Shown one piece after another: positions 41,513-61,508 of a stretch of DNA of 64,000 bases; within the stretch, counting starts at the first letter, position 1; the number at the start of each line of letters is the position of its first letter. Position numbers and translations under genes: made by a program. The notes below the pieces were generated by a model, which saw nothing but the letters and a program-made list of their open reading frames with translations, was not told where the DNA came from and searched no databases. The DNA comes from Leucobacter viscericola (GTDB lineage Bacteria; Actinomycetota; Actinomycetes; Actinomycetales; Microbacteriaceae): positions 2,170,001-2,234,000 of the forward strand of contig NZ_CP049863.1 of the NCBI RefSeq assembly GCF_011299575.1, read 5' to 3'.

Positions 41513-41610
41513 GATTCTCCCCCTCTCCAACCACCTATGTGTGCTGGCCGGTGCGGATTGCTCCACACCGGCCAGGTTGGTGCCCGGCCGCTAGGGTCGG
41601 GTACCGGTTG

Positions 41611-43185
41611 TTACGCCTGAGCCTTGCGCTGACGTGACCGGATAACGATCATCGACGTTGCGCCGGCGAGCAGTGCGATACCGACCACCAGGAAGGCGAC
41701 CGTTCCGGCGCCACCGGTGAAGGGCAGTTCGAGGCCTGCGCCGCGAATAACGTTGACAACCTGAACCGGGTTGGTGAGCTGGAAGCTCGGGTTGACGTTG
41801 TCCTTGGTGACGGTGAAGCCCCAGGGCTCTGCGAGCAGTTCGTAACCCTTAGGAGCCTTGGTCTCGACGAGCCAGTAGTAGTTGTAGCGAGCGTCGGTTG
41901 TTCCGAGCTGAGTGTTCTCGGCGAAGTCCGAGAAGCGCACGTTGAACTCGCAGCTGCTGCCAGCACCCATGATGCAGGTGACGCCGTCCATCTTCACGAA
42001 GCCGGTTGTGGCGTTGCCGACGAGTGAGAAGTCGGGGGTTGCTGAGTGCGAGTAGTACACGTCGAACTCGGCGCCGTTCAGCAGTTCCTTCGCGTCGTTG
42101 ATCTTCTCGACCTTCACGTCAGCGTACTTCGTGATAGACGGGGGAGTTGCTGACTCTTCGGTCTCAGTGTCGGAGCCGGGCTTGTTGGTGATGACACCAC
42201 CGGTGTTCTCGAGTACACCCTGACCCGGGTAGCTTGCGTTGACCTCGGTGAGCACGCGAGTGAGCAGCGTGGCGCCCTTGTTTCCGTTGGCCTTTGCGAG
42301 GCCAGTGGGGGTAAGCGTTGCAGAGATCTTGCGGGTGGGGCCATCAACAGCAACGGTGAAGTCGGCCGGAGTGCTCAGCGCGACGTTGGTGCCGATCGGG
42401 TTCTGCCAGGTGTTACCGATCTGCATGGTCACACTCTTGTAGTCGAGCATTGCGCTCGGCGTATCGGTGACGGTCATGATCTTGACGTCGTTTGTGCCGT
42501 CGCCGGGGATCGTCGTGCGAATCTCCCAGGTGAGCTCTTGGCCGACGGTGTACTTGTCGGTGTCGAGCGGCACCTTTGCGGTGTCGTCCTGAATGTTCTT
42601 CGGGAAGACGTGAACGTCGTACATCCACGTGTTGAGGTTGTCGGGATCGGTCATCGGGATCGTCACGAAGAACGGTGCCGAAGCCTTGTGGCCAGCGGGC
42701 ACGTTGGTCTCGAGAACGTAGTAAGCGCCGATGTCGAGGTTGCTCCACTTGGCAACACCGGTGCCGTCTGCGCCGGTCACCTTGGATCCCTGGGTGGTGA
42801 GCGTAGCGCCCGCACCCGTGATGGCCGCTGCGGTCGGGTTTGCGCCGACGTTCGAGATCAGGCCCTCAAGGTACTGCCAGCCGGAGTTCTTGGTGAGGTC
42901 AAGGGCGGCGTTGCCAACCTTGAACACCTCGAACGTTGCGCCGTCGAGCAGCGTTGAGTTAGCGGAGGGTACGAAGCCGGGCTTGCCGTTGCCCTCGGTG
43001 GTGGGGCGCTCGTCGTCGGGCGTCGAGAACTTCGTGACGGTGATCGAGCCCTTCTTGGAGGTGTCGATCATCTGTGCGGGCGGTGCTGCTGCCGCGGGAG
43101 CCGCGAACGCGACAACGCCGACTGCGCAAGCTGCGAGCAACGCAACTGCGCCGCGCCAGCGCTTGTTTTTAAGGTTGTTAGTCAC
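41611..43185 (-). CDS. Major pilin subunit (SpaH/EbpB family, LPFTG)
   Basis: A 524-residue sortase-polymerised pilin. A signal peptide spans residues 1-34. The pilin motif, with the lysine used for cross-linking, is WMYDVHVFPKN. Prealbumin/CnaB-type domains include TPDDERPTTEGNGKPG...ATFEVFKVGN and VKVEKINDAKELLNGAEFDVYY, and the E-box is YWLVETKAPKGYELLAEP. The C-terminal sorting signal is LPFTGG, a hydrophobic helix and RSRQRKAQA. The order pilin, sortase, adhesin on one strand is a standard Gram-positive pilus island. Confidence 0.95.
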   Translation of the reverse strand: MTNNLKNKRWRGAVALLAACAVGVVAFAAPAAAAPPAQMIDTSKKGSITVTKFSTPDDERPTTEGNGKPGFVPSANSTLLDGATFEVFKVGNAALDLTKNSGWQYLEGLISNVGANPTAAAITGAGATLTTQGSKVTGADGTGVAKWSNLDIGAYYVLETNVPAGHKASAPFFVTIPMTDPDNLNTWMYDVHVFPKNIQDDTAKVPLDTDKYTVGQELTWEIRTTIPGDGTNDVKIMTVTDTPSAMLDYKSVTMQIGNTWQNPIGTNVALSTPADFTVAVDGPTRKISATLTPTGLAKANGNKGATLLTRVLTEVNASYPGQGVLENTGGVITNKPGSDTETEESATPPSITKYADVKVEKINDAKELLNGAEFDVYYSHSATPDFSLVGNATTGFVKMDGVTCIMGAGSSCEFNVRFSDFAENTQLGTTDARYNYYWLVETKAPKGYELLAEPWGFTVTKDNVNPSFQLTNPVQVVNVIRGAGLELPFTGGAGTVAFLVVGIALLAGATSMIVIRSRQRKAQA

Positions 43186-44131: not shown

Positions 44132-44500
44132 ATGACCGTCACCGGACCAGACTTTATTGCCCTTCAGGTGCGCGACCTCGAGCGTGCCGCAGCGTTCTAC
44201 GAGACCAAGCTCGGGCTGCGTCGGGTGCCTGCTTCGCCTCCCGGAGCTGTGGTGTTTGCGACTACTCCGATTCCGTTCGCAGTGCGCGAGCCGCTGCCTG
44301 GCGTTGATCTTGATCAGGTTTCGCGACCGGGTCTTGGAGTGGCGCTCTGGCTGCACTGCGATGCGGTGCAGGACCTGCACGACGCACTTGCGGCTGCCGG
44401 TACTGAGATTGTGCGTGGGGTTGAGCCGGGGCCGTTTGGGGCGATGTTTACGTTTGCTGATTTGGATGGGTATTTGGTTACTTTGCATGAGAACGCGTAG
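44132..44500 (+). CDS. VOC (glyoxalase/bleomycin-resistance) family protein
   Basis: A 122-residue single-module VOC protein. The two beta-alpha-beta-beta-beta units start at DFIALQVRDLERAAAFYETKLG and GVALWLHCDAVQDLHDALAAAG, and the end FTFADLDGYLVTLHEN is typical. Possible metal-ligand positions are partly non-standard (Gln in the first strand). Members are lyases, isomerases, dioxygenases or drug-binding proteins, so no substrate is assigned. The adjacent MarR operator suggests induction by a small toxic compound. Confidence 0.87.
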   Translation: MTVTGPDFIALQVRDLERAAAFYETKLGLRRVPASPPGAVVFATTPIPFAVREPLPGVDLDQVSRPGLGVALWLHCDAVQDLHDALAAAGTEIVRGVEPGPFGAMFTFADLDGYLVTLHENA

Positions 44501-44640
44501 TGGGTTTCCCGCTAATGGCTAGGAAACTATCCATATCTCAACGGTGTGGTCACTTCCGTGGCCATTATCTGATGCCTTCAGGTGTCTATTGAGGTGGTTT
44601 TGCAGGGATGGTGCTGGCGGAACTATTATCTGGAAGTTCA

Positions 44641-44672
44641 AGGCGGGGTAGGCCGGCTGGCCTACCCCGCCT
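44641..44672 (-). terminator. Terminator of the lanthipeptide operon
   Basis: Perfect 14-base arms AGGCGGGGTAGGCC (44641-44654) and GGCCTACCCCGCCT (44659-44672) enclose a 4-base loop. It lies 12 bases downstream of the last precursor gene on the minus strand, making it the probable end of the whole operon. Confidence 0.82.
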
Positions 44673-44684
44673 CGAAGTCGCTAC

Positions 44685-44831
44685 TTAGTAGCAGCCGCCG
44701 ATACTGAGGAGGCTGCTGCCCCACCCGTTGCAGCCGCCGACGCTGACGAAGCTGCCTTTGAGGGCGTCATTGCCGGAGTTCTGAGGGGTTTCGGTTTTCA
44801 TTGTCTGGAGGGCCAGGATCTGCTTTGACAT
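44685..44831 (-). CDS. Class III lanthipeptide precursor, copy 1
   Basis: A 48-residue precursor. The leader starts MSKQILALQTMKTET and contains ILALQ, the leader motif recognised by class III synthetases. The C-terminal core carries two S-x2-S-x3-C units, SFVSVGGC (Ser27, Ser30, Cys34) and SLLSIGGC (Ser40, Ser43, Cys47), joined by a short NGWGS linker and ending in Tyr48. That pattern gives labionin or lanthionine rings in labyrinthopeptin-like products. AAAGGACA precedes the ATG. It is the last gene before the terminator. The peptide is identical to copy 2. Confidence 0.93.
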   Translation of the reverse strand: MSKQILALQTMKTETPQNSGNDALKGSFVSVGGCNGWGSSLLSIGGCY

Positions 44832-44964
44832 GGTGTGTCCTTTCAATATGTACTGCTTTGGGCGAATTGCCCGAAAATGTTGGAGATGCGCCAAAGGCGA
44901 CTCGGGAGAAGGGTAGAAGCTAGGTCAACGTTGACCGATGCCCAGATTCCCTTGAGGAGGACGC

Positions 44965-45111
44965 TTAGTAGCAGCCGCCGATACTGAGGAGGCTGCTGCC
45001 CCACCCGTTGCAGCCGCCGACGCTGACGAAGCTGCCCTTGAGGGCGTCATTGCCGGAGTTCTGAGGGGTTTCGGTTTTCATTGTCTGGAGGGCCAGGATC
45101 TGCTTTGACAT
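44965..45111 (-). CDS. Class III lanthipeptide precursor, copy 2
   Basis: This 48-residue precursor has the same protein sequence as copy 1, with the ILALQ leader motif and two S-x2-S-x3-C core motifs. It lies 34 bases downstream of the synthetase gene, so it is transcribed with the biosynthetic operon, followed by copy 1. Two copies at the operon end may raise precursor dosage relative to the enzymes. Confidence 0.93.
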   Translation of the reverse strand: MSKQILALQTMKTETPQNSGNDALKGSFVSVGGCNGWGSSLLSIGGCY

Positions 45112-45145
45112 GGTGTGTCCTTTCGGTTGTTATTTCTTCGAGCGG

Positions 45146-47824
45146 TTACCCGAAGTTTGGGCGGTGTCCAGTCGAGCTGGACACCAGGCTTTTGATTGCG
45201 GAAATGGGAGTTGTGGACTCTCTAGCCGGGCGGGGAAGAATTTGGCAGTCGCTTCGTGATAGTGAGTCATGGGCCAGGATCAGCCCTGCGCTACCAGAGG
45301 CGACATCCGTAGTGAGCCTGACCCCCGCATCGCCGGCGACATGAAGTCCTGAATCGCTAGCGAGTAGGTAGAGGTTCAGCGCATTCTCGAGATGTTCGGT
45401 AGTGACGGGAGACGCATCAATGAACCTCGCTAGTCCAGCGCGACCGACGAGAAGGCCTGAATATCCGTTAAATAGACCAGGAAACATGGACATAGTTCCA
45501 GCCGTTGCTTGGTAGAGCGCAGGGGCCTTGCTGATGATTTCTTCGGGAAGGTCGGTCCTGTCCCATTCATTGATCACAACCCCGAAACCTGCGCTGCCCA
45601 TGGAAAGGTAGGGGAGCTGGCGGTGACCTTGACGTAGCTGCAGAGTCTCATAGCGGTCATCGAAAACATATCCACCAAGTTCGTTCTTAAGCGAATGTTG
45701 GACTAGTTCAACCCACGCTTCATCAGGTGCCAGCCGTTGGAGTGCGGTGGCTAGCCATGCAATTCCGAGGTGCCCATAAAAAAGGCCAGAGTTCTGGTTA
45801 TCCGGATGATTGCCGAGCATCGGCCTGTCTGCACCGAGCGGAGCAAATCGTGCGGGATCGCTACGGTATTCTGCCGCGATACGGAGCGATTCACCGAGTA
45901 TCCTGTTGCGTCGAGCAGAGGTGTCAAGTTCAGGACGATTTGCGAGTAGATGAGCGAGGCCTAGTAACACACCGGGCCGTCCGTCGTAGACTCGTTTCCC
46001 GGGGGCAGATAGCCAACGACCGGCATTGTGCTGCAGATGTTCATCCGTTGCGGCAGGGCCGCGAAGTATGTCGTTCATGATGAGATCTCCGATCTCTCCG
46101 GTGAACAGGCCCACTGGTGCGCCAGGAAGATTAAACTCTGGAGTAGGAACTTCGGGTTGGTTGGATTCAGAACGTGATCGAGTGAGCACATCGATCGTGA
46201 AATCACCGTAGGCAAGACCCCTGTTGGGCTGTTGCAGGCCATACGGGTGGACTGGATAGGACCGTTTAGGAACCATGTCTCGCATGGATTGGGTGCCTTT
46301 TGCGAGCTGAGACGGTAGATCAGCCAAAGGCATCTCGTTTGCAATAAGAAATCGTCGGCGGAGACCTTGTCGCGCTTCTACTCCATGGGAAGGAATAGGC
46401 GCGAGGGACGTGATGGCAGTGCGGGCATGCTCGACGAATTGTCCTACGGACTCCATCTCTTTTGAGCTAGAAGCTTGAGCTCGGTCTTGGAGGAGTTGTC
46501 CGGGAGCGAAGTCCAAGACTTGTTCGCGATAGTCGGGGACGAGATCACTGAGTTCGACGGCCGGTGATAACAAGTACGCTGTGAACTGGGCGAGGCAGTA
46601 GCGGTCGATCTCCTCAGGAGTGCACTTTCCGGGAGCACGGAATCCTGGTGCAGCAATATCGTGTATGAATAGTTCGTCCGTAACTCTCCGCGCGCACTCA
46701 AGGTCGATCAACCCGACCGTAAGATCATCTGCTACAAGGACATTGCGTGGATGGAGGTCGAGATGCGCCCACCCCTCCCCGTGCATATTGGTAACCGCTT
46801 GTACAAGATTGTTCAGCACGGTTGTTGCATCTCTGAAGTACCGGGGAAGGGTTTCCCCGTCAGCTACGTAACCTGGATAGTTATCGGTTACCCACTGATT
46901 CAAGGGTTTGCCGGGCATCGATTCGATGGCAACGAAATAGTGTTCCCATAACAGACCCGACCAGAAGATGGCAGGCACAGGAACCTTGCCGGAAAGTTCT
47001 TCTAGTACAGCAGCGTGGTCGATCAGTCTGGCAACGGCGTCGCGATTTCGCTCATCCCACCCTGCATGGGGCCTGCCTTCTTTGATAATCGCAGCTCTAC
47101 CTTGAGCTGTGCCTCTATATGTACCGCCGGAGTTTGAGAACTGTATAGCCGAAGTGATGTCGAACGGCAACGTATCGACGTCCGATTCTGAATCTTCTTC
47201 TCTCTCCAACCAAGGCGCCAGCACTCCTGGTATTGCTGCCCAAGATGGAACCTCAAACCCTACGGAACGCGTGTCTGTCTCGCGTTCTCCGCTCGGCGTA
47301 TGCAAGTAGATTGCGGTGTCGATGTCCTGACCATCATCCGGTCTGAAGGAACCATAGCGCAGGTAAATTGGCGCTTTGTCCCACCGACGATCACTGAGGA
47401 TGTACGGACCATCGAACTTGGAGAGACGCTTCTCAAGGCGCTCAAGCAGGGTGCCAAGCTGAGACTCCGACGGGTAGCATGTAATGAATTTTCCAGCGTG
47501 TTCTCGAGGGCAACTGATGCTATTTCGGGCATGGAGCCGTTTCTCCGAAGGCAGAAATTTGAAGCTTACGCTGAGAGGAATGCACTCGGAAGTGACGATC
47601 TCGAGAATTTCTTGAGCGTTTTTCATGACGGCACTGACGTGGATTTTCCATCCCTGCCGCAGTAACGTCTGATTTGGAGCGAAGCAAGATGTCCAGTGAA
47701 ATCCAGAGTGCAATTGCCAAGAACCCGGTAGCTCGGCGATGAACCTTCGAGTCGTGTCGCGTTCATAGGACTCGTCGACGAAATAGAGCGGGTGCGCTCT
47801 CATATATGGAACGAGCTCATCCAT
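45146..47824 (-). CDS. Class III lanthipeptide synthetase (LanKC)
   Basis: An 892-residue three-domain enzyme. The N-terminal lyase region spans about residues 1-210. A Ser/Thr kinase-like domain follows with HLDLHPRNVLV as catalytic loop near residue 365 and LIDLE in place of DFG. The C-terminal LanC-like cyclase (DGRPGVLLGLAHLLANRPEL, SMGSAGFGVVINEW, GLFNGYSGLLVGRAGLARF) lacks the zinc Cys-Cys-His set of class I/II/IV cyclases, as expected for class III. It phosphorylates and eliminates core serines and forms lanthionine or labionin rings. Its start overlaps the upstream peptidase gene by eight bases. Confidence 0.95.
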   Translation of the reverse strand: MDELVPYMRAHPLYFVDESYERDTTRRFIAELPGSWQLHSGFHWTSCFAPNQTLLRQGWKIHVSAVMKNAQEILEIVTSECIPLSVSFKFLPSEKRLHARNSISCPREHAGKFITCYPSESQLGTLLERLEKRLSKFDGPYILSDRRWDKAPIYLRYGSFRPDDGQDIDTAIYLHTPSGERETDTRSVGFEVPSWAAIPGVLAPWLEREEDSESDVDTLPFDITSAIQFSNSGGTYRGTAQGRAAIIKEGRPHAGWDERNRDAVARLIDHAAVLEELSGKVPVPAIFWSGLLWEHYFVAIESMPGKPLNQWVTDNYPGYVADGETLPRYFRDATTVLNNLVQAVTNMHGEGWAHLDLHPRNVLVADDLTVGLIDLECARRVTDELFIHDIAAPGFRAPGKCTPEEIDRYCLAQFTAYLLSPAVELSDLVPDYREQVLDFAPGQLLQDRAQASSSKEMESVGQFVEHARTAITSLAPIPSHGVEARQGLRRRFLIANEMPLADLPSQLAKGTQSMRDMVPKRSYPVHPYGLQQPNRGLAYGDFTIDVLTRSRSESNQPEVPTPEFNLPGAPVGLFTGEIGDLIMNDILRGPAATDEHLQHNAGRWLSAPGKRVYDGRPGVLLGLAHLLANRPELDTSARRNRILGESLRIAAEYRSDPARFAPLGADRPMLGNHPDNQNSGLFYGHLGIAWLATALQRLAPDEAWVELVQHSLKNELGGYVFDDRYETLQLRQGHRQLPYLSMGSAGFGVVINEWDRTDLPEEIISKAPALYQATAGTMSMFPGLFNGYSGLLVGRAGLARFIDASPVTTEHLENALNLYLLASDSGLHVAGDAGVRLTTDVASGSAGLILAHDSLSRSDCQILPRPARESTTPISAIKSLVSSSTGHRPNFG

Positions 47825-49880
47825 GATTACTCCTGTTCGTTAAGGATTGTGCTTCTCGGAGTTGATCCCGAATCCACTGGTATTCGAATACAGAATGATT
47901 GAGGCGGGCAGCCGGCGCAATCGGACCTAGGTGTCCGCTTCCATACCCAAAAGTCCTTAGGAGCACCGAGTTTCCAGCGAATTGCAGTCGGGCAGCCCAT
48001 CGTGCGGATTCATGAAACGCTACGCGCGAGTCATTTTTGCTGGTTGTCACGAAACATGGAGGGTATGTGACGTCATCTCGGATGTTTTCCAAAGGCGAGT
48101 ACAGCTTCATCGCTCGAAGAATGTGAGGTTCGGTACTGGGGTTACCCCACTCGGCCCATTCCGTCGTAGTTAGTGGCGCAAGAGGATCGCTCATTGTTCC
48201 AACCGGATCTAGGAAGGGTGAACGGAGTAACACGCAGCCGAAGATCTCTGGAGCGTTATTCAGTGCCGCTCCAAGCGTGAGCCCGCCTGCGCTATCGGCT
48301 TCGCCGGCTATCCATCCTTGTTCTGTGTGTTTAGCGGCGATGAGCTTGTGAGCACAAGCGACATAGTCAGTAGCGCTTCGTATCTTGTGCTCCCTTGTCG
48401 CAGCTTGATGCCAGGAAGGACCCTGCTCACCTCCACCCCTGACATGGGCAATGCCGACTGAGATTCCGTTATCAAGCAGCCATTGAGTGGAGGGGGAGTA
48501 GCGGCTTCGAGCGGTTGCTCCATATGCTCCATAGACGCGGAGAACCAGTGGTGTAGGGCCCTTGTGGTCGCTAGGAGTTAAGAGCGTGATGGGGATGGGC
48601 ACCCCGTCATTTGCAATGGCTTGTAAGGTTTGGTGACGCACGCTCAGAGATCGCTGAGACTCGAGGCTTGGTGAGTGAATGACCTGACATGTTCCTGTCG
48701 AAGTATCAAAGTGATGTAGCTCACCAGGTTCTGTGGGGGATTCGAGGCCATACAAGATTTGTCTGGCATGCCAGTCGCTGTTCTGAACGAGACCTAACAC
48801 ACTGAGAAGCGGCCCTTTAGCGATGGGCGCAAAAGGCTGTGGCCCCATGGCATCGATGGCAGCTGCGCTAATGACCCGACTGGTCTTCGTGTGATGGGTT
48901 AGTACGAGAGACGAAGCGAATGCGTCTATTGCGTCGATTGATCCAGCTGCACCTCGCCAGAGTTCTTGGGAGATCTCGGGACAATTGAGCTCAGATGCCG
49001 TGATGCGATCGATCTGTTGGGAAGATTCGAGAAAGATGAGTTGATCGGAGTTGGCCCAGAAAGAGTGCTCTAACGTGACCCGAACACCTTTTCGGGCCGT
49101 CCGTATTGGCCTGGGGTCACCCTCTTCCGATTGCAGGGTGTCGAATATAAAGACTTGACCGCTTTCCTTGTCAAAGGAATGAATGACGATGAATCTGCGG
49201 CTTCGAGTCCTCGTGATCGCGAGCCGACGAGTTAAGTCGGGCTCATGGAGGATCTCTCTATGTAGCCACTCCCCATCCAGGCAGCGAGAATGCCACAATC
49301 GATCTGGACGACCGCCATTGTCACTGGTTAGATAAAAAGCTGTCTCTTCCTCATCCCCGATGAGAGCTCCTGGAACGATACCCCGAGCTAAGAGTTTTGA
49401 TGCGCCAGTCGCCACTTCCCGGATGAACAGATCTTGGCGGTCAGCGTTGTCGTAACCCAGCTGATAGAGCAAGTGCGTCCCGGAAAGATTTACATCGACG
49501 TTTCCTACCCCAGCGGCCCGTGCGGCAGAGACTTCGGATGCAACGTCGAAGACCTCGGTGAAAGCCGCAAGATCTGATGGTGAGGTTGGCAGCACATCCG
49601 TGCCTTCTGCAGCACATTTTCTAAGATAGGTAACGTTCTCACGGTTAGGTAGCTGTGCGAGAGTGTAGAACCATTCGCCGATGCGTGAGAGCGGAGCAGC
49701 GATAGGTGCGGTGGGGTCAAGGAAGAGCGGATTGATGCCTTCTCTTTCTTCGCGAGATAGGGCCATGATTTCGTCGACACGACGATTGTTGTCTTCGAGA
49801 AACTCATCGACAAACGAGGCTTGTGTGTCGGCCACCCACGCCGAACGCCGAAGGTCAATGGGGAGAGTCTTGTTGTTCAT
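47817..49880 (-). CDS. Prolyl oligopeptidase-family serine peptidase, probable leader peptidase
   Basis: A 687-residue S9A-type peptidase. The N-terminal ~400 residues look like a seven-bladed propeller. The C-terminal alpha/beta hydrolase carries GEADSAGG with the nucleophile Ser, an Asp in TTSKNDSRVAF and a His in GYGSGHLGP. VRGGGEQGPSWHQAA is the classic S9A block. Prolyl oligopeptidases acting on class III precursors are known (FlaP in Kribbella), and the exporter here has no peptidase domain, so leader removal is the likely role. The leader contains a Thr-Pro that would be a candidate site. ATGA overlaps with the ABC gene upstream. Confidence 0.9.
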   Translation of the reverse strand: MNNKTLPIDLRRSAWVADTQASFVDEFLEDNNRRVDEIMALSREEREGINPLFLDPTAPIAAPLSRIGEWFYTLAQLPNRENVTYLRKCAAEGTDVLPTSPSDLAAFTEVFDVASEVSAARAAGVGNVDVNLSGTHLLYQLGYDNADRQDLFIREVATGASKLLARGIVPGALIGDEEETAFYLTSDNGGRPDRLWHSRCLDGEWLHREILHEPDLTRRLAITRTRSRRFIVIHSFDKESGQVFIFDTLQSEEGDPRPIRTARKGVRVTLEHSFWANSDQLIFLESSQQIDRITASELNCPEISQELWRGAAGSIDAIDAFASSLVLTHHTKTSRVISAAAIDAMGPQPFAPIAKGPLLSVLGLVQNSDWHARQILYGLESPTEPGELHHFDTSTGTCQVIHSPSLESQRSLSVRHQTLQAIANDGVPIPITLLTPSDHKGPTPLVLRVYGAYGATARSRYSPSTQWLLDNGISVGIAHVRGGGEQGPSWHQAATREHKIRSATDYVACAHKLIAAKHTEQGWIAGEADSAGGLTLGAALNNAPEIFGCVLLRSPFLDPVGTMSDPLAPLTTTEWAEWGNPSTEPHILRAMKLYSPLENIRDDVTYPPCFVTTSKNDSRVAFHESARWAARLQFAGNSVLLRTFGYGSGHLGPIAPAARLNHSVFEYQWIRDQLREAQSLTNRSNHG

Positions 49881-51640
49881 GCGGATGTCCCCATTCCGAG
49901 CAGTTCACGGTAGTAGGCATTCTCGGATTTCAGTTTTTCTGGCTGGCCGGTTGCAGTCACTCGTCCTTGTTCCAGAACATGGACGCTGTCAGCGATGCCG
50001 ACTGCGGCAGCTCGATGGCTAGTAAAAATGATTGTCATGGTGCGGCGGAGGTCTCTCAGCACATCGTTGAGTATTCTTTCGTTGAGGGAATCAAGCCCCG
50101 AGGTCGGTTCATCGAGAAGCAGAAGACTCCGTTGCGCGAGTAAAGAACGCGCGATCGCAAGTCGCTGCCGCTCGCCACCTGAGAGAGTTACTCCGGAATT
50201 TCCGACTCGGGTATCGAGTCCGCCCTGTCGCGTGCGAAGCATCGAGCCCAGACGCACCATGTCCAGCACCGCCCAGCAAGCTTCGTCGCCCACCGGGCCC
50301 GCGCCCAGGGTGAGATTGTCGCGAACGGATCCAGTCAAGATCGGAGCTCCTTGCTCCACGTATGCCAGCTGACTCCGAAGGCTCTCACGGGAGCAAGTTG
50401 AAATATCGACACCATCAAAATAAATCGATCCGCTAGATGGTTCGTCGAACCTTTCAAGGAGCGAGAAGAGCGTTGACTTACCTGCACCGGAGGCACCGAC
50501 GATTCCGGTAATCGAGCCCGCCTCGGCTTCGATTGATACGTCCGTCAGTATTTGACGGTCAGCGACTGACAAACTGACGTTATTAAACTGTATTCTCGGG
50601 GGACGCTGTCGCGGCGTACACAGTCGGGGAGACATATTCATGTTGCTGTCGCTTTGGCCTTCAGTTGGGCAATCGAGGATCTCTTGAATGCGTTGTGTCC
50701 CTCCTGCTGCCATTCGCATTGCTGCGACGGCGCTGATCACCTGTCCAAGTGGCCCGGCCATGATCATAAGGAAGAGCACAAAGCTGATTAACGTTGCGAT
50801 TGATAGCTCTCCCGAAGCGACACGAATTCCTCCTATCGCGAAGACAACCATCAGAAGTAGCTGAGTGCTGAGGTAGTTCATAGGTGCGAACGGGGCGGCC
50901 GCGCGGGCAAGCTTGATGCCCGCACCTCGTGTGGAGTCAACGGCAGCAACAATAGATGCCTCCTCGCGGTCCGTGGCGTTGAAGGCGCGGATCGTGGTGA
51001 CGCCTTTCAAAGCGCGGTCGATAAGGCTGCCAATGCGACCCACCGCCGACTGATAGGCGTGGGCTGCGGCCTGGAGACGCGAACCCACGTGCTGAACGGC
51101 CCACGCGGTGGCCAGCAGAACCGTGAGCGCGATTGCTGTTAGTAGCGGGTCGATGATTAACATCGCCACAACTGCACCGCCAACCGTCAGGACCGCACCG
51201 ACCGCGTCAACAAAACCCGCTGCGACTGCAGTACGGATGCTGTTTGTGTCGTTGGTGGCGCGAATTACAAGGTCGCCGGGTGCTCGGTGGTGGTACTCGG
51301 CTATTGGCAGACGAAGCATACGGCCGATCAATGAGGTTCGAACTCCGACAACGACATCTTCACTGACACGTCCCATCAGCAGCGCCTGCCCATATTGAAG
51401 GGCCGCTGCGACGAAGACGAGGCCGACGCCAATCAGCACCAGAGTCACGCTAATGCTTGTTGTCGCTTGCGCCTGGTTGATGAGTTCCTGGACTATGAGT
51501 GGTTGGGCCAATGAGACAGCCGCGGCTGATATAGCGAGAATCATGCCACCAACGATGGCTCGCCAATGTGGCGTGATGAACTTGAAGAGTGTTGACCAGC
51601 TCTTGACTCGCGTTTGCGACGCTTCTGTTTGTGTCATCAT
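49877..51640 (-). CDS. ABC exporter (fused permease and ATPase), lanthipeptide export
   Basis: A 587-residue half-transporter. Six transmembrane helices occupy residues ~30-310. The ATPase has Walker A GASGAGKST, signature LSGGERQRLAIARSLL and Walker B LLLLDEPTSGLD. It has no N-terminal C39 peptidase domain, so it exports but does not cleave. Its position between the FtsX permease and the peptidase genes, with an overlap to the latter, makes lanthipeptide export the natural role. Confidence 0.92.
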   Translation of the reverse strand: MMTQTEASQTRVKSWSTLFKFITPHWRAIVGGMILAISAAAVSLAQPLIVQELINQAQATTSISVTLVLIGVGLVFVAAALQYGQALLMGRVSEDVVVGVRTSLIGRMLRLPIAEYHHRAPGDLVIRATNDTNSIRTAVAAGFVDAVGAVLTVGGAVVAMLIIDPLLTAIALTVLLATAWAVQHVGSRLQAAAHAYQSAVGRIGSLIDRALKGVTTIRAFNATDREEASIVAAVDSTRGAGIKLARAAAPFAPMNYLSTQLLLMVVFAIGGIRVASGELSIATLISFVLFLMIMAGPLGQVISAVAAMRMAAGGTQRIQEILDCPTEGQSDSNMNMSPRLCTPRQRPPRIQFNNVSLSVADRQILTDVSIEAEAGSITGIVGASGAGKSTLFSLLERFDEPSSGSIYFDGVDISTCSRESLRSQLAYVEQGAPILTGSVRDNLTLGAGPVGDEACWAVLDMVRLGSMLRTRQGGLDTRVGNSGVTLSGGERQRLAIARSLLAQRSLLLLDEPTSGLDSLNERILNDVLRDLRRTMTIIFTSHRAAAVGIADSVHVLEQGRVTATGQPEKLKSENAYYRELLGMGTSA

Positions 51641-51662
51641 TTCATTCCTTCTCGGATTGAAC

Positions 51663-53057
51663 TCAAGCCGGGGTGAGAGCGGATCTCAGATCCTTATGGC
51701 TGGCTGAATAGGCGGGCAATGCGACGACAAGGAGCATGGCTACATAGGCGACTGGAAGGAGTAACGCGAACTGGGTGAGGTCCAAGCTGGGAGCAAATGG
51801 TCCGCCGCTGAGTACGTAGGTGACGCTCTGGGTGAGCACCGTTACGATGGTTGCGATGAGAGCCACGATTCCAGCAGTAACGACATAGATAAGAGCCTCA
51901 AGCGCGACTTGTGCACGCAGGGTGCCCGGTCGGGCTCCAGCTGTTCTTGTGAGGGCGAGTTCCCGTTGACGATCCCGTCCGGTCATGAACAGGTTTGTGA
52001 CGCTGCCGACGCCAGTGATTACGGCCACAGGGGTCAGCACAACATAAGTGTCCAGTGTGTTGAGCGGTTCGCTTATGCCGGTGATGTTTAGTGCAGTTTG
52101 CCATGTCGCGATGGATCCAAAAATGACACCAAAGAGTGTGAACCCGACGGTCAGCGGGACGATGGTGGTTGAAGACAGTGCAAAACGATGGAACGCCGAT
52201 TGGCGGGCAAGGTACCATGCTGGTCGGGTCGGCGGAACGATGGACGTCCAAAGACGCATGATCGCGGGGATCATCAGAGGTGCTGCGAACCCGAACGTGG
52301 CTGCCAATGTGATGCCGAGGGTGATTGAGTTGCTTGCTCCGGCAGCGAAGGCTTCACCCGGTGATGAAACGTAGAATACCGACGCGATTGCACCGATCAG
52401 GATCATGAAAACCATCGAGACGGCAAGTCCGAACCCAATCCACCGAACCACGCCCATTTTCTTTGATGCCTGAGGTTCGTCGCGTACTGCTGCTACGGCC
52501 GGAGTCTTGGCTGCGATGCGAGCTGGACGGAACGAAGCAAGCCAGCAGACGACGAGTGTGCAAGCGAGTGTGAACAACAAGACAACACCATCCGCAACGG
52601 CAGTGATGTGAGTATCCGTACGGGTGGACATTCTGGTGAGAGTATCCGTGGCCGGTTGGACAAGTGGCAGGGCGAGAAAATACCCAAGGAAAGTACCCAC
52701 GAACGATACGGCAAGGACCTGAAGCGTGATGGCGGCTCGCACTTGGCGGGGGCGAGCGCCGGCCAGTCGCAGAGTGGCGATCTGGTATCTCTGTGCACGA
52801 ATGGTGACGGCGGTGTTTGAGCCGAGCACGATGACAACTGAGAGCGCAATGACAACATAGAGCATGTATGACGACGCACGGACCTCATCTAAGGAGCGAC
52901 CGAGGGTTGCTAGCGTGGATTCCGCTTGAGGAGTGCCGAGTGACCACCAATATGTCACCACGAGTGTTAGGAGTAGCGCAGTGCTACCAACGACAATGAC
53001 TGGACCGATCCAGAGTCGCCAGTCAGCGCGAAGAGTTGTGAAGGCTACACGAATCAT
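51663..53057 (-). CDS. FtsX-like ABC permease
   Basis: A 464-residue permease with the MacB/BceB-like FtsX arrangement: several helices in two blocks, and conserved FtsX segments GSNTAVTIRAQRYQIATLRLAG and FMTGRDRQRELALTRTAGA, each followed by a transmembrane triplet. Such permeases with a separate ATPase either confer immunity to lantibiotics or sense them with a kinase. ATG 53057 overlaps the stop of the ATPase gene by four bases. The longer frame upstream is rejected because it lies inside that gene. Confidence 0.9.
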   Translation of the reverse strand: MIRVAFTTLRADWRLWIGPVIVVGSTALLLTLVVTYWWSLGTPQAESTLATLGRSLDEVRASSYMLYVVIALSVVIVLGSNTAVTIRAQRYQIATLRLAGARPRQVRAAITLQVLAVSFVGTFLGYFLALPLVQPATDTLTRMSTRTDTHITAVADGVVLLFTLACTLVVCWLASFRPARIAAKTPAVAAVRDEPQASKKMGVVRWIGFGLAVSMVFMILIGAIASVFYVSSPGEAFAAGASNSITLGITLAATFGFAAPLMIPAIMRLWTSIVPPTRPAWYLARQSAFHRFALSSTTIVPLTVGFTLFGVIFGSIATWQTALNITGISEPLNTLDTYVVLTPVAVITGVGSVTNLFMTGRDRQRELALTRTAGARPGTLRAQVALEALIYVVTAGIVALIATIVTVLTQSVTYVLSGGPFAPSLDLTQFALLLPVAYVAMLLVVALPAYSASHKDLRSALTPA

Positions 53058-53812
53058 TTGCCATTCCTCGCTTCGGGTTCGCTCACCAAAGCGAGCAGTT
53101 GCTCTGCTGAAGGGCGCATCAGCGAGTGGGTGATTAGGCCATCGCGCATGACGAAAACGGTGTCTGCTCTGCAAGCGGCTTCCAGATCGTGAGTGACCAT
53201 GACAACGGTGTGACCAAGGTCTGCATAGCTGCGCAACTGGTCGAGCACGGTTCGTGCATTCGTCGAGTCGAGGGCTCCAGTAGGTTCGTCAGCGAACACA
53301 ATACGCGGCTGTGCATACAGGACTCGTGCCAACGCAACCCGCTGCTGCTGTCCGTTCGAGAGACTTGATATTTCGGACAGGCCCTTTTCAGCGAGGCCTA
53401 AAGATACAAGAATCGAGTCGGCTCGTGCAAGATCAGCGCGACGGCCAGCGAGACGATCAGAGATGACGATATTCTCGCGAGCTTTGAGTGACGGGACCAG
53501 ATTGAAGGACTGAAACACGAAGCCCATTGCTTCGCGGTAAAGGGTGGCCTTCCGCTCATCGTTCATGGAGGTGATGTCCTCACCCTCGATACGCACTTCC
53601 CCTGCAGTCGGTCGTTCAAGCCCGGAGAGGGCGTACAAGAGAGTTGATTTTCCGCACCCACTTGGACCGACGATTGCCGCCATCTGGCCTGACGCGATGG
53701 TGAGGGAGATCCCGCGTAGCGCCTGCACCTCAGGTATGCCATTACGCCCCCCGAACGTTTTGACGAGAGACTCTGATTGCACCGTTGCAAATTTGGAATT
53801 CATGCTTGTCAT
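53054..53812 (-). CDS. ABC transporter ATP-binding protein (BceA/MacB type)
   Basis: A 252-residue ATPase that pairs with the FtsX permease. Walker A is GPSGCGKST, the signature region is LSNGQQQRVALARVL (Asn replaces the usual Gly in LSGGQ), Walker B is RIVFADEPTGALD, and the switch His is in MVTHD. It is the first gene of the lanthipeptide operon on the minus strand. A second ATG lies three codons in. Likely function is self-protection or sensing of the peptide. Confidence 0.92.
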   Translation of the reverse strand: MTSMNSKFATVQSESLVKTFGGRNGIPEVQALRGISLTIASGQMAAIVGPSGCGKSTLLYALSGLERPTAGEVRIEGEDITSMNDERKATLYREAMGFVFQSFNLVPSLKARENIVISDRLAGRRADLARADSILVSLGLAEKGLSEISSLSNGQQQRVALARVLYAQPRIVFADEPTGALDSTNARTVLDQLRSYADLGHTVVMVTHDLEAACRADTVFVMRDGLITHSLMRPSAEQLLALVSEPEARNGK

Positions 53813-53857
53813 TCAACCACCGTAGGGACAAACTGGCACTATGGAAAAGTAGTTGGC

Positions 53858-53879
53858 AAGGTATTGAAAACCATACCTT
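53858..53879. promoter_or_regulatory. Inverted repeat in the divergent lanthipeptide promoter region
   Basis: AAGGTAT-TGAAAACC-ATACCTT has perfect 7-base arms. It lies between the start of the biosynthetic operon (53812) and the histidine kinase gene (53917), the best position for binding by the response regulator encoded next to it. Confidence 0.6.
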
Positions 53880-53916
53880 TCGGTGGGCGGGCTGAAATGG
53901 ATCATAAGGTGGTTGC

Positions 53917-55179
53917 ATGACCAGAATGAGCCTCGCGAGCGCAATTAGGCTGACCCCCTGGCGATTCCTTCTTTCTCGATGGCCGTACAGTGCCGCCCTT
54001 TATGTTGGTGTGTGCATCCTCCTCGCCCCGATAAGTGTTGCTGCCGTATCAACGGTCTTTTTGATCCCTCTGTGGGGTGCGGTGTTGGCTCATATTGACC
54101 GACGAACAGTGACACTTCTGGGCCGTGAGCGCATACAAGAGGCGAGAGTGCGGGCGCCATTTGAGCGTTTCGGTGATCGAGTGCGAGCGCAGCTTGCGGA
54201 GCCGATAACGTGGCGTGAGAGTGGTTATGAGTTGATCCATCTCGTCATTGCAATCGCAGCGTTTGGCCTCTTGAGTCTTGCATGGACGTTTTTCGCGACA
54301 GGGGGTCTGGTCCCAGTCATTTTGTTCGTCAATGCTGTGAATGACGCGCCTTCGCCACTCGGTGAGGTGACTAGTGGCAGTCTGGTTTGGGCTATTCCAC
54401 TCGCTTTGCTCAGTTTGCTACTGGTGCTGTATGCCACGTCAGGCATTGCGTTGGGGCTTAGCTCCATTGCTGCCAAGATGCTCTCCCCGCGGCCTGAAGC
54501 TTTGCAGCGTCAAGTCGCGCAACTCGCGCGCAGCAATGCGCTCATTCAAGATGAGTTCGATACTCGTCTGCGTGATCTTGAAAGGCAGATCCACGATGGT
54601 GCACAGATACGTCTTTCCACTGCTGCGCTCCACTTAGGGCTTCTCGAACACCGGCTTCAGAGTGCGCGGGGAACGCAGGATGACGCCGACGAGTGCCTGG
54701 CGATCCTTGAAACCGTGCGCTCGGAGAACGAGATGTCGATGGATGCGCTCCGCGACTCAATGAAAAGCCTCCGCCCACGTACGTTGCAGGAGAGTGGGTT
54801 GGTCTCAGCAATTCGCGAAGTGTCCCGGACCCTTCCGATGAGCATTCGGGTTGAAGGAGCTGAGGGGCTGCGGCTCCCTGTCGGAGCCGAGTACTCGCTA
54901 CTGCAAATAGCGAAAGAAGCGCTCAATAATATCGCCAAGCATGCCAACGCTAGCGAGGTCGACATTGAATTTTCAGTGACCGCGAGCCAGAGTGAACTCG
55001 TGATCAGTGACAACGGTAAAGGCGGTGCCAATCCCTTCGTGGGTACAGGAATTATCGGAATGCAAGAACGAGCTCAACTTCTCGACGGCTCTTTCAGCCT
55101 CTCCAGTCCTCCAGGAGGGCCAACTAGGCTCACAGTACGTGTTCCTAGCTCTGCAGCAAATGACTCGAAGGGTCCGTGA
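53917..55179 (+). CDS. Two-component sensor histidine kinase (NarL/DesK type)
   Basis: A 420-residue membrane kinase. Hydrophobic N-terminal segments form about four helices (YSAALYVGVCILLAPISVAA, ELIHLVIAIAAFGLLSLAW, LVWAIPLALLSLLLVLYA). The HisKA_3 phosphoacceptor box is LERQIHDGAQIRLS. The HATPase domain has the N box LLQIAKEALNNIAKHANAS and G boxes ISDNGKGG and GTGIIGMQERA. It is divergent from the lanthipeptide operon and translationally coupled to the response regulator. With few extracytoplasmic residues it may sense through the adjacent FtsX transporter, as in BceS-type systems (inference). Confidence 0.92.
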   Translation: MTRMSLASAIRLTPWRFLLSRWPYSAALYVGVCILLAPISVAAVSTVFLIPLWGAVLAHIDRRTVTLLGRERIQEARVRAPFERFGDRVRAQLAEPITWRESGYELIHLVIAIAAFGLLSLAWTFFATGGLVPVILFVNAVNDAPSPLGEVTSGSLVWAIPLALLSLLLVLYATSGIALGLSSIAAKMLSPRPEALQRQVAQLARSNALIQDEFDTRLRDLERQIHDGAQIRLSTAALHLGLLEHRLQSARGTQDDADECLAILETVRSENEMSMDALRDSMKSLRPRTLQESGLVSAIREVSRTLPMSIRVEGAEGLRLPVGAEYSLLQIAKEALNNIAKHANASEVDIEFSVTASQSELVISDNGKGGANPFVGTGIIGMQERAQLLDGSFSLSSPPGGPTRLTVRVPSSAANDSKGP

Positions 55180-55880
55180 CATCAATGAGGATCATACTGG
55201 CCGAGGACGACGTCCTCTTTCGGGAAGGGCTTTGTGCGCTGCTGCCCCAGTTCGGACACGAGGTTTTGGAAGCCGTCTCTGATCGGCCAAGTTTGGAGTG
55301 CTCGATTGAGAGGTGGATGAATTCTGATGGCAAGGTCGATCTTGTTATTACTGACGTGCGCATGCCGCCGACTCACACGGATGACGGACTGGCCGCAGCT
55401 CTTAAAATACGCGCGTCGTACTCGGAACTCCCGATCCTCGTTCTCTCTCAGTTCATCGGCGATGCATACGCTATCCGGTTGCTGACAGACTCTGAGCAGG
55501 TGGAGCAGGGAGGAACTGGCTACTTGCTGAAAGACCGTATCGGGCGTATTGATGAATTCCTGCGGTCGGCGCAAGTCGTCGCGGATGGAGGTGTCGTTAT
55601 CGACCCCAAGGTTGTTCGCGCAATGCTGAAGGAGCAGCGAGCGAGCGAGCTGACCGCTCTGACTTCTCGGGAACGTGACGTTATTGAGTTACTTGCTTCG
55701 GGACGAACGAACGAACAGATAGCGAGCGAGCTATTTGTCACTCCGACGGCCGTGGTGAAGCACATTGGAAACATCTTCACCAAGCTCGGACTTCAGCCTG
55801 CCGACGGAAACCGTCGAGTGCTGGCGGTTCTGCGTTACCTTGAGGGGAATCAGGATCGAAATTCGGCAGAAGTCCTTTGA
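55176..55880 (+). CDS. Response regulator (NarL/LuxR type)
   Basis: A 234-residue regulator. The receiver domain has the acidic pair in ILAEDDVLFREG, the phosphoacceptor Asp in LVITDVRMPP and the Lys in GYLLKDRIG. The C-terminal LuxR HTH is LTSRERDVIELLASGRTNEQ and VVKHIGNIFTKLGL. GTG 55176 overlaps the kinase stop (GTGA). ATG 55185 is an alternative start that fits the receiver N terminus slightly better. It probably controls the lanthipeptide operon through the inverted repeat at 53858-53879. Confidence 0.92.
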   Translation: MTSMRIILAEDDVLFREGLCALLPQFGHEVLEAVSDRPSLECSIERWMNSDGKVDLVITDVRMPPTHTDDGLAAALKIRASYSELPILVLSQFIGDAYAIRLLTDSEQVEQGGTGYLLKDRIGRIDEFLRSAQVVADGGVVIDPKVVRAMLKEQRASELTALTSRERDVIELLASGRTNEQIASELFVTPTAVVKHIGNIFTKLGLQPADGNRRVLAVLRYLEGNQDRNSAEVL

Positions 55881-56584: not shown

Positions 56585-57798
56585 ATGAATACGCATTTGG
56601 CGTCGATTCCCCAATGGTGCATAGAAGCAATCGATAAGCTCTCTGCTTCGCAATCCCCACCCATTGAAATGATTGCTTCGCTTGCAATGCGATTAGCTAC
56701 TTCCGGCGTAGTTCTAGAGAAAGATGTTTGTGCTACCGATGTTGCTTCGACCGGCGGGCCCGCAAGTCTAACGACATTTCTTCCACCCTAATTCTTGCTG
56801 CATGGGGCATTCCCGTTCCCAAAATCGGAGTACCCGGCCGACCTGCGGGAGTTCTAGATACACTCGGAGTTCTTCCGGGCTACCGAACGGAGCTTTCTCG
56901 CCGAGAGTTCGAACATGCGGTCAAAAAATCGAACTTTGGAAACACGCGATCAACTGGTGAGTTTGCCCCAGAGGACAGCCTGCTTTTTGATGCCCGTCAA
57001 ATTCGGGGAGCTCAGGCTGTCCCAGGTTTGGTTGTCGCCAGTCTTCTAGCAAAGAAGGTAGCGGCTGGTTTGACCCGCGTTGTCTTTGACATCCGTACCT
57101 TTCCGGGTGGAAATTTCGGGTCCGATGCGCTGAGGGCCTCGCAAAATTCTCAACTACTTATTGACACTGCAAAGTACCTGGATATTGAAATAACGTGTGT
57201 GATCAGTGGCGAAGACTTTCCTGCGCAACCATTCATCGGACGACGGGAGGCACTTCAAGGGCTCCTTGCATTTGTGAACGACGAGCCAAAGACTTTGTTG
57301 GCTCCCCACGTTGCGCACTGTCTTCAACTAGCAAATGTGGCTAGCGGGGGCAGGCTCGACAGGGTACCGACAAGTGGCAGCTTGAGGGGAACCTTAGATT
57401 TGCATCTTAAGGCGCAAGGGGCGAAAGGCCTGTCGACGCTTGAAACGTATCTCAAGCACACGCAACTCACACATTCGTTTGCGGTGGTGCATGCGTCTGC
57501 AGGCGGGGTAGTTCGATGGGATTTGATTGCAATCCGAACAGTTCTGCTTTCTTATCAGAACAGAAGTGCTGTCTCCGTTGGGTTTTCGGATGATTGTGGG
57601 ATTGAACTGTTGGCAATGAGTGGCACTCTGGTCGCTGAAGGAGAACCCTTGGCAGTTGTAAGAAGTAGAAACTCTAGTTTTCTCCAAGATGAGTGTCAAG
57701 GTATCTCGCAGAGCTACAGGCTAGTGGCTGAAGAACAATCGATCGAGTCGAAAGGAGGTGCTGCATGGAATACATCTGTTTCTTCCACCCGCGCCTGA
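56585..57798 (+). pseudogene. Thymidine/pyrimidine-nucleoside phosphorylase-like protein, frameshifted
   Basis: With one base added it is 404 residues. The N-terminal frame ends ATDVASTGGPASLTTFLPP-stop. The next frame continues LILAAWGIPVPKIGVPGRPA, then GVLDTLGVLPGYR, LLFDARQIRGAQAVPGLVVA and VVFDIRTFPGGNFG, the order of blocks in the thymidine phosphorylase family. They meet near 56783-56790, where CCC in place of CCCC explains the shift. The phosphate-binding block is STGGPASLTT with Val-Ala before it, not the Lys-His of DeoA (DKHSTGG). Visibly AT-richer than the flanks. It overlaps the next gene by 34 bases, so the two are one unit. Confidence 0.75.
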
Positions 57799-60700
57799 AG
57801 GGTTTCTCTCCTGAGGAACTTTGCAAGGAATGCGGGAGGCGTTTTGATTTTCCGAGCCAGAATCCTCCGAAGACTATTCATGGACTAATCGTAGAAAGTG
57901 AACTTGGTCGAGGGTTCTATGCGGTTTCGTATCGTGTCAGAAACCCACGTACCGGAGTTGCCACGGTGATGAAGGTCACTCCCAAAGGTGTCTACGAGCC
58001 ACCGGATCCAAATTGCGAAGCGCGAGGTGGCTACGGTGAGCGTCGCGATTTCGAGAACGAGTCAAAAACCCACGTCGCTCTACAAGAGATCTCTGAGATT
58101 GCTCACATTATTGAGTGGGGTGGAGATACTGAAGAGTTTGGTGGTGTACCGCTCGAGGTCTTCTGGACCCAGATGGAGCTAGTACGAGGTGAGACCATCG
58201 ATCATTACTACTCTAAAGGTGACATTTTGTCGCCAAGAACGATTGCCCAGGTAGCAGAGGATCTTTTAACTCTTAGTGAAAAGCTCGAACTTAAGGGAAT
58301 TTATCATAATGATCTGCACGGTGGCAACGCGGCAATTGTCGAATTGGCTCCGGAGAATCAAAGGCGAAGAGCTATTGACCCGTCGATAGCCGTGAAGGTA
58401 TTTGATATAGGTAGCGCGGCAAAGACGGATGGGGCCGACTTTGCCCCCAAACGATTTAGCGACCTCGAACAAATCTCTAGCCAAATTCATCGTCTTTTAG
58501 ATAGGTTTGATGACTCAGTTTCCTCATCGGAGATTGTCCCCAGCGATGTGAGACTTTCAGCGCAATTGCGTAAAGTGGCGCAAACCTATGCCCAGGTTGA
58601 TTGGAAATCACGCCGTTCAACGGCTTCAGATATGCTCCATGAGGTTAGACGAGCTTACACGCTCTCCGTAAACCCCGAACAGTATCGGCCTATTGAGTTT
58701 CAGTCAGTCCAGGACCACTATAACGCGCAGACTCTGCCACCTGCATATGCCAAAACGTTGATCCATGACCCTGACGGGCTTTGGACGAAGGCAATGACTT
58801 CTGCTGGACCACAGCTGGTTGTAGGAATGCGCGGATGTGGTAAAACGATGTTGCTTCGTTCTCTTGAATGGTCTGCACATGCTGTTCTCAACCGGGGTGA
58901 GAACCAGAATGATGCGAGAGTAAGACTTGAAGAGCAGAGTTATCTTGGCCTGTTCGTCTCCTGCGCCTATTTACTCCGTGCTCCACGTGAACAGGTCGGA
59001 CGAGGTGCGCTGCAGAGGCTTTACCTTGCATACGCACGTGAAGCGGTCAGGGCGGCACTTACCTGTGAGGTGCACAATCTAGGTGAAATCCAACCCGAAG
59101 CCATGGACAGATTATGTGAGTTGATTAAGGCGACGGTCCCGACTTTCGAGCTTAAGGGTGATGCTGCTTCTTTCCATCAAGTTGAGTTGGAACTAAGCAA
59201 AGCCATACAAAGAGATGTGCCCGATCACGTCCGACGTGCATTCGTGCCATTGGAGGCGTTCACTGAACTTGCGAAGGGCATTCGCTCGTTGGTTGATATT
59301 TGGGAAAGTAAAACCGTGCTTTTCCTTCTTGATGATGTAAGTAAGAGATTTGTGAGTGAAGAAGATCTTACAGACCTGCTTACGCAATTTTGCTTGAAAA
59401 GCGAGACTTTTGGGTTCAAGATCAGTACTGAAACGCAGACGCAGGTTTTGCATTCACCAAGTGGAGAACGGGCGCTAGAAGGTCGCGACTATCAGGTGTT
59501 TGATCTTGGTGAAAGAGTGCTCCAGGCGCTGTCTGGAAGAAAAGGCAGCCGATTCTTAGCGGAAATATTAGATCGTCGTCAAAGGCTGGTGGGCGGAGAG
59601 CTCTCGATATCCGCAAAAGCCAAGTTGGGCGACCAGAGTCTTCGTGCTCTTGCTGAGGCAATTCGGACTTCAGGGCCTGAGGATTCTCCGGGTAGAAAGA
59701 GTTATTACCATGGGCTTTCGGCTCTGGCTGCAGTCTGTGTGGGCGACATAGGTGATGTCCTTCAGATCTTCCACAAGATGACCACAGATGTTTCTCCGAC
59801 TGAAAAAGTTAGCCCGAAGCATCAGCATCGCGTATTTGTTGACGAAGGTCGTCTGCGATTACTTTCCCTAGTGAAGCTTGAAGTTGATGATGCCTGGTAC
59901 TTCAATCACAGTGTCGCGTTTGCTAGCGCAAGTTATCAGGAGTTGGTGCAGCGGGAAAGAATCCGCCAATATGCTGACATCTTTATTGAAATTGATAGCA
60001 GTGATAAATCGGCCTTCCAGAGACTTATGGCTTTGGTGGACAAGGGTGTTTACATAATCATCGGGTTTAGGCAGCGTTCTAAGACGATTGAGGGTGACCC
60101 CATCTATCAGTTTGCCCTGAGATTTCGAAAACTATTTGGGCTATATCATGGCATGCCGCTCAGTAATCGCGACCGGTTCGAGCTCAACGGGGAAGACGTT
60201 CCGAAGTGGCTTAAAGAACCTACTTCAGAGATCTTGACGTCTTTGGGCGGTTCCAGTGACAGTGGGGCCTACGGTTGGTTGCCGCAGATTCTGGATGACG
60301 AAGAGGAGTTACTAGACGTTCAGCCCGGTCAGTCAATTTTCGAACTTGAAGCGGCCCCCGCCCCGACCTTGTTTGATGATAAGAGTTTCGCTGAAGATAA
60401 AGGAGACGAGGCTAAGTCTGGCGCACCGCGCACGGCCAATAATGTCGCAATTGATGAACTGCCCATCGGGCCGGACACGCTCAACTGGGCGAGCGCAACT
60501 CTCGTAGCTGCTGTTGGATTTGAAGACAGGGCGTCTGAGTCGCTTGAGATGCTTGCTAAGCAAGGAGTGACGAGTGTCGGATCGTTGGTGCTGGCGAGGT
60601 ATGCAGAGGCTGGAAATGCTGTCGATATTGAGACCGCTTGCTCTAAACTCTCGTCGCGCATCCAGCACTTTGATGTGGATACCGCTCGGGATCCTTCCAA

Positions 60701-61451: not shown

Positions 61452-61508
61452 GGCAGGCCGGTTGTCCTGTGCTTTGGTGATTTGTTTTTGGAGCTGGCGT
61501 CTCATCTC

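Follow-up and report, generated by a model that had tools for sequence, protein, structure and literature searches.

A class III lanthipeptide operon of Leucobacter viscericola with an oligopeptidase-B-like protease that probably cuts at a basic leader/core junction

Leader removal is a poorly understood step in the maturation of class III lanthipeptides. We analysed a 64,000-nucleotide stretch of Leucobacter viscericola DNA (hereafter the window; NZ_CP049863.1, 2170001-2234000, in a single-contig genome of 3,697,133 bases), which carries at 44641-55880 a complete and otherwise ordinary class III lanthipeptide operon with its own S9-family protease. Judged by its sequence and predicted structure, this protease is oligopeptidase-B-like (OpB-like) and not prolyl-type, and it quite probably removes the leader by one cut after Lys25, leaving a product of 23 residues. 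A sequence-only reading of the same DNA had labelled the enzyme a prolyl oligopeptidase and drawn flavipeptin-like processing from that label, neither of which is supported by the protease evidence below; the window thus offers a correction of the maturation step, and one that extends to other clusters. The genes that bear on this step are the following:

44965..45111, minus strand: precursor LanA copy 1, 48 residues, leader MSKQILALQTMKTETPQNSGNDALK, predicted core GSFVSVGGCNGWGSSLLSIGGCY (Pfam RamS)
44685..44831, minus strand: precursor LanA copy 2, 48 residues, peptide as in copy 1
45146..47824, minus strand: class III synthetase LanKC, with lyase, kinase and apparently zinc-free cyclase domains (NF038151, RamC_N, Cys positions)
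47817..49880, minus strand: S9 protease, OpB-like (family matches, PDB and Foldseek searches, alignment, tree)

When the S9 protease was searched by sequence against the PDB, the first seven rows were oligopeptidase B (best 4bp8, 3e-48), followed by a 'prolyl endopeptidase-like' entry (7obm, 1e-37) and then prolyl endopeptidase (3mun, 2e-28). With its AlphaFold model as query (mean predicted local distance difference test score 88, predicted template modelling score 0.90), the top eight Foldseek rows were likewise oligopeptidase B (E from 4e-46 to 1e-43); the NCBIfam oligopeptidase B model, on the other hand, gave 170 bits, well under its cut-off of 1313. In prolyl-type S9 proteases a Trp sits in the S1 pocket, and the eight FlaP-type proteases that we compared have a prolyl-type Trp motif there (GPAW or similar); the window protease lacks this Trp. 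Its specificity region reads LTTTEWAEWGNP, that of Trypanosoma brucei oligopeptidase B LTTGEWEEWGNP, and E574 stands opposite residue 607 of 4bp8. In a hand-chosen alignment of the window protease with 51 S9 proteins, the column of E574 holds Glu in 45 of 52 rows, and S530, D617 and H650, which we take to be the catalytic triad, are invariant. According to a review (PMC3778648), P1 specificity in Salmonella oligopeptidase B may depend on Glu576 and Glu578; in T. brucei it is essentially defined by Glu607 alone, which corresponds to Glu576, and in a Leishmania structure the second Glu helps to hold the domains together. A tree of 38 selected S9 proteins set the window protease and six cluster-borne OpB-like proteases apart from both housekeeping oligopeptidase B and prolyl enzymes (99/98 support) and placed the eight FlaP-type proteases among the prolyl enzymes, subject to a long-branch warning that includes the window branch.

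The kind of protease also goes with the residue at the leader/core junction. LanKC loci were gathered from one scan (79 loci, with the best 80 of 589 kept) and from further targeted searches of the family, the order, Lactobacillales, the families of G646, G966 and G789, the genus of Streptococcus orisasini and one plasmid. After six duplicates were dropped (L196, L142, L195, L207, L208 and L211), 141 distinct loci were left, two of them without LanKC and 36 without a rule-called precursor, so that 103 were counted. Loci were labelled OpB, FlaP or none by hand from the S9 search and the pocket letters, 'none' meaning no S9 gene in the fetched flanks, some of which ended at contig ends; the 87 loci without S9 were counted without merging near-identical ones, and a locus was scored positive if any of its precursors fitted the rule. 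A ninth other S9 gene near a LanKC (L058), with neither pocket and no called precursor, stands outside the count.

Lys or Arg two residues before the first ring Ser or Thr (K/R-x-S/T) was present at all eight loci with an OpB-like S9, at none of the eight with a FlaP-type protease and at four of the 87 with neither. With the junction marked by a slash, the eight read ALK/GS in the window, GMR/FS in L006, GER/GS in L177, GAR/FS in L205, GAR/NS in L223, GAR/VS in L140, AAR/IS in L147 and FAR/VS in L149, and the pocket residue at the position of E574 is Glu in five of the eight proteases and Asp in three. The pattern was first seen in five loci; L177, L205 and L223 were found after the rule had been formed, and all three fit. 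Seven of the eight OpB-type loci were placed in the LanKC tree, where they occupy two regions far from each other; within one of these, the window and the Lactobacillales stand separately. Some neighbours on the tree lack both features: L178, nested beside L205, and L004 and L100, nearest to the window LanKC, have neither S9 nor basic residue in their fetched flanks. Housekeeping S9 genes were considered as unclustered leader proteases for the Cryobacterium and G169 clusters: each of these genomes has one elsewhere, but the precursors there are without the basic residue. L140 has a further precursor, next to its second LanKC, that likewise has no basic residue at the junction. Since the OpB-like gene and the basic residue co-occur on unrelated LanKC lineages, the mature N terminus would be readable from sequence. 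We consider it likely that class III clusters use two groups of S9 leader protease, the FlaP-type prolyl enzymes and OpB-like enzymes that cut once after Lys or Arg, one residue before the first ring Ser, the latter in both Actinomycetota and Lactobacillales. Leader Pro was also tried as a marker of FlaP and proved unusable, being present in 71 of 98 rows without S9 as well as in 12 of 12 FlaP-type rows (duplicate short loci included).

If true, the rule lets the mature ends of a set of peptides be predicted and provides a leader protease with simple basic specificity. It could also account for the pairing of flaP-like genes, in six of seven predicted Brevibacterium clusters, with leaders that mostly have no proline; a leader Pro is described in one of six precursors (PMC5719810). 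Elsewhere, FlaP-like proteases have been linked with FlaA homologues (PMC8960859), the noursin cluster of Streptomyces noursei carries the S9 peptidase NorP (PMC10206099), and LanPB of Streptococcus pneumoniae clusters has been called a prolyl oligopeptidase (PMC7268733). In the open-licence literature, two papers bring up oligopeptidase B together with lanthipeptides, once each, and among the further titles and abstracts listed none dealt with an OpB-type leader protease, which is no proof of absence.

Both precursor genes of the window encode MSKQILALQTMKTETPQNSGNDALKGSFVSVGGCNGWGSSLLSIGGCY, identical at all 48 residues; the genes differ at one of 144 bases, synonymously, and lie within a 181-nt repeat (94% identical, copies spaced 280 nt), pointing to a recent duplication or gene conversion. 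The precursor scored 26.0 bits against Pfam RamS (cut-off 24.3) and 20.6 bits against NCBIfam SapB_AmfS, under its cut-off of 25. Its leader has the ILALQ motif and its core, SFVSVGGCNGWGSSLLSIGGCY, two S-x2-S-x3-C motifs, SFVSVGGC and SLLSIGGC. With five Ser in the core, up to five dehydrations are possible where four had been given as the ceiling, and 23 residues are now predicted where the earlier figure was about 20. As for its novelty, the sole other precursor that a protein search found (P0002, on a 542-base contig) is 90% identical, with Val at position 16 and Lys25 kept; the core peptide appears new, though of a known type. Durhapeptin, a class III peptide with two SxxSxxxC motifs, lost four waters (PMC13380574), which fits a four-water prediction for the window peptide. 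The near-identity of the precursor copies (44685-45111) extends into some upstream sequence.

In the proposed route, LanKC would bind the ILALQ leader, phosphorylate and eliminate Ser, and close the two S-x2-S-x3-C rings, as expected from its family. The S9 protease would then cut once after Lys25 at the leader/core junction, and not after Pro16, releasing GSFVSVGGCNGWGSSLLSIGGCY with four or five waters lost (predicted [M+2H]2+ 1067.98 or 1058.97). The peptide would be carried out by the exporter, FtsEX or both, in an order of steps that we infer, with FtsEX perhaps also protecting the producer, and a divergent kinase/regulator pair probably controls the operon.

Several points weigh against a single OpB-like cut after Lys25. 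The leader itself offers Lys12 and Pro16 as alternative candidate cut sites, and oligopeptidase B is known for short substrates, whereas the window precursor has 48 residues. The next Foldseek row after oligopeptidase B is a prolyl endopeptidase (2e-40) with a similar TM-score, prolyl endopeptidases reaching 0.81 against 0.75-0.85 for oligopeptidase B, values so close that the fold alone separates the two kinds weakly. Where oligopeptidase B has its second glutamate (Glu578), a residue also tied to specificity in Salmonella, the window protease has Ala576; the window protease also forms a long branch and shares only about 30% identity with its closest relatives. For the rule, the Fisher value of 4e-9 (8/8 against 4/87) overstates independence, as the eight OpB-type loci represent about three lineages, and four of the 87 loci without S9 nevertheless show the K/R-x-S/T junction (L055, in one of five precursors; L057; L107, in one of four; and L144, where the contig ends 933 bases past LanKC).

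Foremost among the rivals is a FlaP-like protease that cuts after Pro16 once the rings have formed, with another host peptidase then trimming the residues before the core, a route that we regard as improbable. The window leader does have Pro16, its ETP lies near its place in FlaA-type leaders, and FlaP itself cleaves behind Pro(-12), a reaction that is efficient only once the peptide has been modified (PMC10885120). Yet the window protease has the oligopeptidase B Glu in place of the Trp of the eight FlaP-type proteases, P0002, 90% identical, carries Val instead of Pro16, and seven of the eight OpB-type junction precursors have no leader Pro. By pocket residues, tree, PDB matches and leader pattern, the prolyl reading of the protease was judged the less likely. 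More doubtful still is a bystander or general-peptidase role for the S9 protease, with leader removal left to an unclustered enzyme such as an AplP-like M1 protease: AplP-like enzymes work from outside the cluster (PMC10885120), and 87 of the 103 class III loci with a called precursor have no clustered S9, but the S9 gene overlaps both the LanKC and the exporter genes, and OpB-like genes and basic residues occur together. Equally doubtful is a silent or decayed cluster without product, since, although the operon lies in an accessory region and a scan for sigma-70-type promoters found one weak site, fewer than in shuffles (mean 5), its reading frames are intact and its two precursor copies, with one synonymous difference, encode the same peptide.

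LanKC scored 590 bits against the NCBIfam class III model NF038151 (cut-off 575) and 263 bits against the class IV model (cut-off 650), so that it does not fall outside its family; together with the RamS precursor and the LanKC tree, this bears out the earlier call of a class III lanthipeptide cluster. Pfam matched RamC_N in LanKC and no separate LanC domain. Zinc-binding cyclases hold the metal through Cys, and the 892-residue LanKC has Cys only at 47, 81, 105, 116, 377, 401, 410 and 860; with none between 410 and 860, where such ligands would lie, the cyclase is predicted to be without zinc-binding Cys. The nearest named LanKC relatives are from Canibacter (42%), Clavibacter (40%) and Cryobacterium (38%), and in a tree of 38 LanKCs that of the window groups with Cryobacterium breve, G169, Austwickia and G1223 (97/97), a group that joins the Lactobacillales (100/100). 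The core of labyrinthopeptin presumably differs in sequence from that of the window. It shares the S-x2-S-x3-C motif, which becomes lanthionine in some members of the family and labionin in others (PMC7268733). A lipolanthine of the microvionin type was considered and set aside, as neither a decarboxylase nor fatty-acid or polyketide genes, the marks of that class, are among the seven non-precursor genes of 44641-55880 by Pfam, a search that covered only some of the genes further away.

Known systems resemble the window operon in different parts. Flavipeptin (Kribbella flavida FlaA/FlaKC/FlaP), seen through the Kribbella relatives L040, L070 and L080, shares a class III LanKC, an LxLQ leader, a leader Pro (Pro16 in the window, Val in P0002) and a clustered S9-fold protease; these relatives differ in their FlaP-type pocket Trp, in a protease that falls among prolyl oligopeptidases, in a LanKC of another clade and in another core. 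Class III clusters of Brevibacterium, which hold weak homologues of flaP, share LanKC, the S9 protease, ABC components and precursors mostly without leader Pro (PMC5719810). L140 and L149, which may be Brevibacterium members, have the junction Arg and a pocket Asp, on a distant LanKC branch and with another core. Nearer are the Lactobacillales S9 clusters, in S. orisasini (L006), G966 (L177), G1262 (L205) and a Melissococcus plasmid (L223), which share a sister clade of LanKC (L223 is outside the tree), an acid-pocket S9, the K/R-x-S junction and an FtsE-type ATPase, and differ from the window in their cores. In the record of L223 (Melissococcus plutonius plasmid AP012283.1), the LanKC and S9 frames are interrupted and the precursor frame is intact. 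LanPB of S. pneumoniae (PMC7268733) is probably of this acid-pocket S9 kind. C. breve L004 and G169 (L100) have the closest LanKCs whose surroundings were seen (37% and 40%), and share with the window the core spacing SxxSxxxCx4SSxxSxxxCY, FtsEX and the ABC exporter; they differ in having no S9 in the fetched flanks, no basic junction residue and transporter genes that point away from LanKC. Separately, L107 (G083) has four called precursors, two with junctions ..EPRFS or ..EPRFPS, and no S9 was found in its fetched flanks.

The remaining features of the locus are:

49877..51640, minus strand: ABC exporter half-transporter (Pfam, NCBIfam)
51663..53057, minus strand: FtsX-like permease (Pfam; query 51666-53060, one extra codon at the start)
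53054..53812, minus strand: FtsE, ABC ATPase partner of the permease (Pfam, NCBIfam)
53917..55179, plus strand: sensor histidine kinase, divergent (Pfam, NCBIfam)
55176..55880, plus strand: NarL/LuxR-type response regulator (Pfam, NCBIfam)
53858..53879, no strand: inverted repeat with perfect 7-bp arms, AAGGTAT-N8-ATACCTT, in the gap between the divergent genes, possibly a regulator site
44637..44676, no strand: hairpin with 18-base arms after the last precursor, possibly a transcript end

The reading frames lie where the sequence-only reading had put them, with family matches for each type of product. They form a minus-strand operon-like run, in the order 5' to 3' FtsE, FtsX, ABC exporter, S9 protease, LanKC and the two precursors, from which the histidine kinase and NarL/LuxR-type regulator diverge (53917-55880). 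Overlaps are of eight bases (LanKC/S9) or four (S9/ABC, FtsX/FtsE, kinase/regulator), with gaps of 22 bases between ABC and FtsX and 34 between LanKC and the first precursor; for FtsX, the ATG at 53057 is a more likely start than the TTG of the first frame call. Pfam matched no peptidase domain in the ABC exporter. FtsEX probably belongs to the cluster, for export or self-protection, because the fetched flanks of the eight OpB-type loci hold an FtsE-type ATPase, a count without a control for ATPases that are common. Counterparts of the kinase and regulator adjoin LanKC in L109-L111 (190-199 bits), which are near copies of one cluster. The inverted repeat was set aside as a regulator site: it could be chance, as matches with up to three mismatches arose in 40 of 100 shuffles, and no exact match was found in 257 loci. 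The terminator scan did not list the hairpin at 44637-44676 as terminator-like.

The operon belongs to the accessory DNA of a variable region. Among 53 other genomes of the genus, neither the precursor (E 0.001) nor LanKC (E 1e-30) was found, and LanKC at E 1e-30 occurred in 15 of 398 genomes sampled from the family (Microbacteriaceae), its own included. Four same-genus genomes were inspected around TauE (61.5 kb). In G025, G024 and G001, the genes of 29.4-31.4 kb adjoin TauE; in G012, whose TauE is the most similar (88%), DNA matches on the left come in patches that stop at 44490, and they resume at 61508. The flanking genes of the variable region (31400-61500) are thus adjacent in three of the four, and G012 holds mostly other content. 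Beside the cluster, 35584-43185 encodes a sortase, a SpaA-type pilin and surface proteins with repeats that look RCC1-like by eye in translation. On its other side, a 356-residue frame (56728-57798, plus strand) with no Pfam or PADLOC match at E 0.01 lies upstream of the gene for a 1228-residue protein (57765-61451, plus strand) in a low-GC stretch. This protein has an ORC-CDC6-like match by Pfam, matches PADLOC CARF6 'CARF_STK_AAA' over its whole length (740 bits) and is a candidate defence effector.

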